NCBI RefSeq assembly: GCF_019880205.1
Contig: NZ_CP082292.1
Span: 310,001 to 374,000 of the forward strand
DNA: 64,000 nucleotides
From: Pantoea alfalfae
GTDB lineage: Bacteria; Pseudomonadota; Gammaproteobacteria; Enterobacterales; Enterobacteriaceae
Direction: 5' to 3'
The first letter of the stretch is position 1; every line of letters begins with the position of its first letter. Positions 14,053 through 38,593 of this stretch are shown in pieces. Under the pieces are notes generated by a model. That model worked only from the letters and a program-made list of their open reading frames with translations. It ran no database searches and had not been told where the DNA came from. Made by a program: the position numbers and the translations under genes.

Positions 14053-14718
14053 TTAGCCGAAATTGACCTGGCGGGCGGTCTGGCGTTCAGCCAGACGTTT
14101 CAGCGCGGCATTGAGCAGTACGCCGTAGGCGGGCAGGAAGAAGACCATGCAGATCAGCACCTTGAAGCTGTAATCTACCAGAGCAATCTCAACCCAGTGC
14201 TGCGCCATAAACGCATCGGGGCTTTTATAGAAGGCGATAAAGAAGAAGGCCAGCGTATCGCTGATATTCCCCAGGAACATGGCGCAGCCGGGTGCTATCC
14301 ACCACTGAGGCAGACGACGCAGACGGTTAAAGACATGAACGTCGAGGATCTGACCCAGTGCATAAGCCATAAAGCTGGCGCAGGCGATACGGGCCACAAA
14401 CAGGTTCATCACTTCCAGCGCCTGCCAGCCCTGCCATTCACCCTGATAGAACAGCGCCGAGACGCCATAAGAGATAAACAGCGCCGGGATCATTACGGCC
14501 AGAATAATGCGTCGGGCCAGCGGTGCGCCAAAAATACGCACGGTGAGATCGGTCGCCAGGAAGATAAACGGGAAGCTGAACGCGCCCCAGGTGGTGTGGA
14601 AGCCAAAGACGGAGATCGGCAACTGAACCAGGTAGTTACTGGAGGTGATCACCAGCAGGTGAAACAGCGATAGCCAGAAAAGCGCATGCATGCGCTGACG
14701 TGAAGAAAATGCGAGCAT
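14053..14718 (-). CDS. yhhQ: YhhQ, queuosine precursor (preQ0/preQ1) transporter
   Basis: A 221-residue, six-helix inner-membrane protein of the COG1738/DUF165 vitamin-uptake-like family; E. coli YhhQ imports queuosine precursors. Sequence blocks such as SNYLVQLPISVFGFHTTWG, FIFLATDLTVRIFGAPLARR and GNISDTLAFFFIAF match E. coli YhhQ. The start at 14718 (MLAFSSRQRMHALFW) is chosen over the in-frame start at 14754. It aligns with the E. coli start, has an AAGG site 6 bases away, and leaves the candidate riboswitch untranslated. tusA is divergent upstream and dcrB lies downstream. Confidence 0.92.
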   Translation of the reverse strand: MLAFSSRQRMHALFWLSLFHLLVITSSNYLVQLPISVFGFHTTWGAFSFPFIFLATDLTVRIFGAPLARRIILAVMIPALFISYGVSALFYQGEWQGWQALEVMNLFVARIACASFMAYALGQILDVHVFNRLRRLPQWWIAPGCAMFLGNISDTLAFFFIAFYKSPDAFMAQHWVEIALVDYSFKVLICMVFFLPAYGVLLNAALKRLAERQTARQVNFG

Positions 14719-14721
14719 ATT

Positions 14722-14754
14722 CAACCTTTTTAATGTTGGGGTGAGGGAACCCAT
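14722..14754 (-). promoter_or_regulatory. Candidate preQ1-I riboswitch in the yhhQ leader
   Basis: On the minus strand the leader reads TGGG, loop TTCCCTCA, CCCCA, then ACATTAAAAAGG just before the start codon. This matches the preQ1-I plan: a short G/C stem, a loop beginning TTC, ACCCC on the 3' side, and an A-rich tail containing the Shine-Dalgarno AAGG. The loop CCT can pair with AGG of the ribosome site as a pseudoknot, so ligand binding would shut off translation. PreQ1-I riboswitches are known ahead of COG1738 transporters. The call is by eye; no covariance search was possible. Confidence 0.6.
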
Positions 14755-14922
14755 TGCGGGACGCCGTTCGGGCAGCGCCTGGCAGTTTTATGAGCAAAAA
14801 GCGGCGGCATATTACCGCGTTGTGCTTTTTATGCAATGGTTAATTTTAACGCAATCGTTATCGCCTTGCTTCACCGCCAGCACGCGCTAGAATGAGCGCC
14901 CCTTACCTGAACCGAGTTGATT

Positions 14923-38497: not shown

Positions 38498-38593
38498 GCG
38501 TTTCCGGGAGGTCGCCCGACAGCCTGGAAAAGCACGACATTGCTCACATTGCTTCCAGTATTATTTCGCCAGCTTAGATGCTGGCTTTTTTTT
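38498..38593 (+). ncRNA. ryhB: RyhB small regulatory RNA
   Basis: The 35-base core at 38529-38563, containing the seed and Hfq region with CACATTGCTTCCAG, appears identical to E. coli RyhB. It is followed by a terminator GCCAGC / GCTGGC (38568-38573 with 38580-38585) and eight T. A start near 38498 fits the -10 at 38486-38491 and gives about 96 nt, close to the 90 nt of E. coli. RyhB pairs with mRNAs for iron-using proteins under iron starvation. The 5' arm before the core has diverged. The yhhY-ryhB order is kept, but yhhX, expected next, is missing. Confidence 0.95.

Follow-up and report, generated by a model that had tools for sequence, protein, structure and literature searches.

The leader RNA of E. 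coli yhhQ, studied as the Eco 36-mer, is a class I type III preQ1-I riboswitch for which PMC10622847 reports a preQ1 KD of 57.9 nM by ITC and 6.1-fold repression by preQ1 in live cells. In the 2.30 Å co-crystal structure described there, the first adenine of the Shine–Dalgarno (SD) sequence touches preQ1. Type III was defined by McCown 2014, as cited in PMC10622847 and PMC11625349. Its members are recognised by three G-C pairs in P1, a short, pyrimidine-rich loop carrying UU on the 5′ side and AC, with the specificity base, on the 3′ side, four to five conserved adenines ahead of the tail, an AAGG that pairs with the loop as the P2 pseudoknot, and a location in the yhhQ leader of a gammaproteobacterium.

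The Pantoea locus was analysed within a 64-kb window, by which we mean the whole stretch of 64,000 nucleotides. On the minus strand, upstream of yhhQ, lies an element that reads UGGG-UUCCCUCAC-CCCA-ACAUU-AAAAAGG from P1 to the SD (14753–14725). The full leader, from 14754 to 14716, is 5′-A UGGG UUCCCUCAC CCCA ACAUU AAAAAGG UUGAAU AUG-3′, with 6 nt between the SD tail and the yhhQ ATG (14718). The original prediction, a preQ1-I aptamer at 14722–14754, was right to within a few bases, and its class can be narrowed to class I type III. The P1 5′ strand UGGG (14750–14753) pairs with the P1 3′ strand CCCA (14737–14740); three of these pairs are G-C, joining GGG 14752–14750 to CCC 14740–14738. Between the strands lies the pyrimidine-rich loop UUCCCUCAC (14741–14749), 9 nt long with one purine, which has UU at its 5′ side and AC at its 3′ side. 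Within it, CCU (14744–14746) serves as anti-SD and 5′ strand of P2, partnered by AGG 14727–14725. The L3 linker ACAUU (14732–14736), which differs in sequence and length among relatives, is followed by the conserved A-tract AAAAA (14727–14731), whose contacts to the P1 minor groove and the pocket floor are predicted by homology to the structure in PMC10622847. The SD AAGG (14725–14728) supplies the P2 3′ strand with its AGG and thereby places the SD within the pseudoknot, as had been predicted. The pattern GGGTTCCCTCACCCCN{2,14}AAAAGG (also written GGGTTCCCTCACCCC-N{2,14}-AAAAGG) has one match in the window, at 14752–14725 on the minus strand, and none of 100 dinucleotide shuffles contained any match; the looser pattern GGGTTYYYYNACCCC likewise had a single window match and none in 100 shuffles.

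The Pantoea and E. coli elements (the latter at locus L034) share the gene yhhQ, the loop letters UUCCCUCAC, the AAAAAGG tail that doubles as SD, and the GGG/CCC core of P1. In Eco 36-mer numbering, U7 and U8 correspond to 14749 and 14748, C10, C11 and U12 to 14746–14744, C15 to 14741, C16–C18 to 14740–14738, and A33, A34, G35 and G36 to 14728–14725. Bases of the loop, of the P1 G-C pairs and of the tail that were compared with the roles described in PMC10622847 carry the same letters in Pantoea. By this correspondence, C14741 would be the preQ1 specificity base (the role reported for C15), U14749 and U14748 the loop uridines (a role being reported for U7), and A14728 the base touching preQ1 (as reported for A33). 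The two elements differ in P1, with four pairs in Pantoea versus six in our own reading of the E. coli sequence, and in the gap from CCC to AAAAAGG, which is 6 nt in Pantoea, 11 nt in E. coli and 6 nt in the engineered 30-mer used for crystallisation. The Pantoea element equals that 30-mer in length and matches it at 26 of 30 letters, the construct letters being derived from the text of PMC10622847. Published descriptions of class I type II riboswitches (Tte, Bsu) give an H-type pseudoknot, a one-ligand pocket and an AC ahead of the P1 3′ strand as points of likeness; type II members differ in having purines in the loop and in burying part of the SD (Tte) or ending transcription (Bsu), whereas in Pantoea a single purine occurs in the loop and AAGG lies entirely in the fold. 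As described, class I type I (Can) resembles the Pantoea element in the UU beside the P1 5′ strand and in controlling queuosine genes, but has a longer loop, UC ahead of the P1 3′ strand and two stacked ligands. Membership of this two-ligand type was rejected for the Pantoea element, with its loop of 9 nt that ends in AC.

The element is almost certainly a class I type III preQ1-I riboswitch, orthologous to the crystallised E. coli yhhQ switch, through which preQ1 would repress YhhQ translation. It is real and well supported but ordinary, belonging to an already known kind of riboswitch. Homology to the E. coli switch predicts preQ1 as the ligand in Pantoea, an OFF direction and a translational mode. 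When preQ1 is plentiful, its binding site would be C14741 plus both loop uridines; the A-tract, along with the AAGG strand, would then fold back, and the loop CCU would pair with the tail AGG to form P2. Formation of P2 would bury the SD, and YhhQ would not be made. With preQ1 scarce, the free tail would permit ribosome loading, and the preQ0/preQ1 importer would be made. The genes queF, tgt and queC are present in the same genome above their cut-offs; thus, preQ1 is probably both made and used in the host. It is very improbable that the same RNA fold serves a different cellular ligand, preQ0, as the one that matters. YhhQ also imports preQ0, with an apparent preference according to PMC10622847, and that paper reports an earlier in-line probing analysis that had suggested preQ0 as ligand; however, its kinetic analysis describes a strong preference of the E. 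coli switch for preQ1, and the Pantoea loop and tail letters are those of this preQ1-preferring switch.

Conservation was assessed in the leaders of relatives of the window's genome. An order-wide sample of 148 genomes yielded YhhQ in 90, and a family sample of 119 yielded it in 77; four of the 77 were also among the 90, and G196 was omitted because its YhhQ match begins at residue 66, giving 162 leaders. The partial G169 and the stop-bearing G171 were retained, and both carry the element. A structure-based finder located the element upstream of yhhQ in 154 of the 162 genomes and in all 80 named loci, the latter being the best 80 among 207 obtained in a separate scan and including some of the same genomes as those sampled. 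A stricter text pattern found it in 65 of the 90 order-wide genomes, in 69 of the 79 genomes that make up all of the window's family (seven of them also among the 90), and in all 80 of the best 80 of 207 named loci. The finder did not find the element in eight of the 162 genomes (G117, G132, G028, G002, G145, G119, G211 and G237), which include all five members of family f3. Across 49 loci (L062–L110), 23 of 24 core columns are invariant with a pairwise identity of 0.998; the finder demands some core letters, and none of the 49 was lost through it. In the same loci, the adjoining upstream stretch has 0 of 24 invariant columns (identity 0.318), and the yhhQ gene start has 11 of 24 (identity 0.766). 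The stem and the A-rich tail, whose lack of conservation in close relatives had been named as grounds against the aptamer, are therefore conserved. In eight genomes with long linkers, the tail was taken as the last A-tract, and the tail of G251 was re-read by hand (AAAAGA lies in its linker), giving a gap of 7; this genome was excluded from the survey of start codons in 153 leaders.

The gene downstream of the element, yhhQ (14053–14718, minus strand; ATG 14718–14716), encodes a preQ0/preQ1 transporter. Its product scores 370.5 bits against NCBIfam PRK11212 (cut-off 252), which confirms the predicted identity of the gene, and aligns from model position 2 when read from the short start. The gene is flanked by dcrB on one side and divergent tusA on the other, and YhhQ is 99–100% identical in the five nearest named loci among the matches listed, which are labelled Pantoea or Candidatus Pantoea. 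The longest open reading frame begins at 14754, the foot of P1 within the aptamer region, and adds a 12-codon N-terminal extension, MGSLTPTLKRLN (14719–14754, minus strand), which we judge to be spurious, the aptamer read as codons. A real 12-residue extension of YhhQ, with the conserved stretch owing to protein coding, is extremely improbable. In Pantoea the frame is indeed open from 14754, 87 of 153 leaders keep it open across the aptamer, and frame 0 from GGG to ATG is somewhat commoner than the other two (64:45:44); however, a start codon at the P1 position together with an open frame occurs in just 11 of the 153, the gap from CCC to AAAAAGG spans 3 to 68 nt, the PRK11212 alignment begins at the short start, and the E. 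coli gene is annotated at the short start. The spacing from tail to ATG is 6 or 7 nt in 117 of 153 leaders. The yhhQ start is thus likely the short form at 14718, in agreement with the original view that the long upstream start is wrong. The long-frame YhhQ open reading frames of L251 (from 1488) and L253 (from 1314) include LGSLTP ahead of the true start, possibly a sign of misplaced database starts.

Turning to base pairing, P1 and P2 were examined in alignment A1, which holds 57 leaders (56 segments and E. coli). Its source was a set of 149 distinct segments in which the loop has 9 nt and the linker is short, with G083 and G086 omitted from the 58 order-level ones. In A1, 98.0% of P1 and P2 cells are paired, falling to 71% across the 57 leaders when the partners are slid by one base. 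Changes on both sides of a pair occur in 33 cells, versus a mean of 9.6 in shuffles, and 0 of 500 shuffles reached as high, the cells counting sequences rather than independent events. One of five covariation measures, the number of further pair types, gave 6 versus 6.7 in shuffles, with 500 of 500 as high. Among the 154 elements, the P1 pairs are G-C in 154; G-C in 152 with A-U in 2; and G-C in 153 with A-U in 1, respectively. The fourth P1 pair is U-A in 112, C-G in 26, A-U in 1 and unpaired in 15, and 12 of these 15 are leaders with an extra C in which, by eye, the pairing register is one off. The first and second P2 pairs are U-A and C-G in all 154, and the third is C-G in 140, U-A in 9 (one family of eight and one other genome), U-G in 4 and A-G in 1 (G068). 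Of the 154 elements, 153 have standard pairs at every P2 position, four of these with U-G; on the tail side, the two inner P2 pairs are partly predetermined, as the finder requires GG or GA after an A-tract. The middle P2 pair appears broken in 4 of 57 rows of A1, which by eye were shifted by MAFFT; by register, it is intact in 154 of 154. The compensatory changes to be sought in aligned yhhQ leaders are thus seen in both P1 and the SD pseudoknot. That the leader is conserved because it acts via a protein or small RNA, or is merely a strong ribosome site, and not a ligand-sensing aptamer, has next to no chance of being right: preQ1 as the Pantoea ligand does rest on homology, but the compensatory changes in P1 and the pseudoknot pair, and a loop and tail identical to those of the crystallised aptamer, stand against it.

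The leader's nested folding does not surpass that of shuffles (z −0.25 and +0.28); in the nested fold of minimum energy, P1 is displaced by one base. Folding energy does not single out the element; the evidence for the type III riboswitch comes from conservation, covariation and its identity with the E. coli switch. The minimum-energy fold also contains a CAAC/GUUG hairpin (14735–14738 with 14722–14725). This hairpin occupies the final SD base and would be in competition with the pseudoknot; the letters at this site differ in many relatives.

The covariance model RF00522 (PreQ1), Rfam's preQ1-I family with a gathering cut-off of 39 bits, gave no match at gathering or permissive thresholds in the window or in the 601 bases around the element, and genome-wide it gave three weak matches elsewhere (14.7–15.6 bits), none at yhhQ. 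The same model gave no match up to E 10 at the E. coli yhhQ locus, which encodes the proven switch. Because the proven switch is likewise unscored, the silence of RF00522 is no argument against the Pantoea element, and this model does not define type III. The one Rfam gathering match in the window is the small RNA RyhB (38528–38593, plus strand; 82.5 bits, cut-off 55). Two further models were built, R1 from A1 and R2 from A2, which comprises 47 leaders of other families and excludes the window's family, E. coli and three rows of family f27 whose tails were misaligned in A1. As A1 includes the window's own sequence, a match of R1 there arises by construction, and R2 was relied on. R2 scored 45.3 bits in the window (E 2.7e-8, at 14756–14723), with next-best window matches at E 2.7 and 3.8, and 46.7 bits at the E. 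coli locus. Across the whole genome, where 150 of 905 first-look candidates were scored, the sole other match was partial (E 8.8). A covariance score below threshold, named with the original prediction as one half of its refutation, formally occurred with RF00522 but is uninformative here. In a class-wide scan, R1 matched in 5 of 229 genomes and gave no match in 224; apart from the match in the window itself there are four, every one in a genome from outside that order and upstream of a gene above the PRK11212 cut-off. Because R1 derives from leaders of the order and strict filters were applied in the scan, this count may miss more distant members.

The natural elements vary in linker length and in SD position. 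The gap from CCC to AAAAAGG is at most 7 nt in 89 of 154 elements; it is 9 nt in 4 and shorter in 99. Eight genomes (G080, G184, G176, G149, G202, G188, G076 and G138) have gaps of 21–68 nt. Five of these eight long linkers were folded: three fold better than shuffles, as a hairpin (z −2.5 to −3.2); the other two, at z −0.08 and −1.24, do not. The idea that the 46-nt linker of G080 copies a repeated element found no support, a 24-base pattern with two mismatches allowed occurring once in G080 and being absent from G000. The change of the third P2 pair from C-G to U-A is found in all eight members of family f10 and in G020. These leaders have the tail AAAAAGA and a loop beginning UUCUCU; P2 still pairs, the AAGG inside P2 is lost, and an AGG lies 0–3 nt downstream of the tail. 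This downstream AGG is likely the SD of these leaders. An example is the displaced-SD aptamer of L159 (108–143, minus strand), with tail AAAAAGA and a U-A third P2 pair. Two of five family f10 genomes also gave weak matches, below cut-off, to a decahaem cytochrome family. Gaps shorter than that of E. coli are the norm, and set-points may therefore be tuned by linker length. It is plausible, if slightly on the doubtful side, that type III is an evolutionarily tunable device, in which linker length may tune set-points and the aptamers of f10 and G020 would hide a displaced SD indirectly, by neighbourhood. A literature search that did not include McCown 2014 found no account of long-linker or displaced-SD variants.

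Upstream of the aptamer, a candidate yhhQ promoter was picked out by eye on the minus strand, with −35 TTGCAT (14831–14836), a block that recurs in the leaders, and, 16 nt away, −10 TAATAT (14809–14814). A consensus promoter scan did not report this TTGCAT/TAATAT pair; it reported one minus-strand site (14948–14920), inside or at the edge of tusA. A terminator-like hairpin that the scan gave at 14818–14801 was considered as an expression platform and not adopted, because it shares bases with the candidate −10 and is located upstream of the aptamer. The yhhQ/tusA intergenic region also contains a palindrome resembling a PurR operator, GCGATAACGATTGCGT (14849–14864, minus strand), which agrees at 9 of 11 defined positions with ANGCAANCGNTTNCNT, which we take to be the PurR operator consensus. 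Scored against the same assumed consensus, the E. coli yhhQ leader has a PurR-like operator with 10 of 11 positions. Scores of at least 9 occur in 52 of 79 leaders of the window's family versus 5 of 79 when each was shuffled once, and the majority of other families show them no more often than shuffles do. Control of yhhQ by PurR is reported in PMC5372724. Possibly, yhhQ is under joint control, with purines acting on transcription and preQ1 on translation.

RF00522 misses both type III members tested, and annotation that relies on it may overlook such leaders. For YhhQ entries that begin with GSLTP, in which the aptamer is read as codons, a correction would be supported. The short-linker and displaced-SD natural variants offer material on how linker length and SD position set the riboswitch response. 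Our literature search found no account of a preQ1 riboswitch in Pantoea; the present comparison supports the view that a Pantoea relies on the same RNA switch as E. coli to control its uptake of queuosine precursors.
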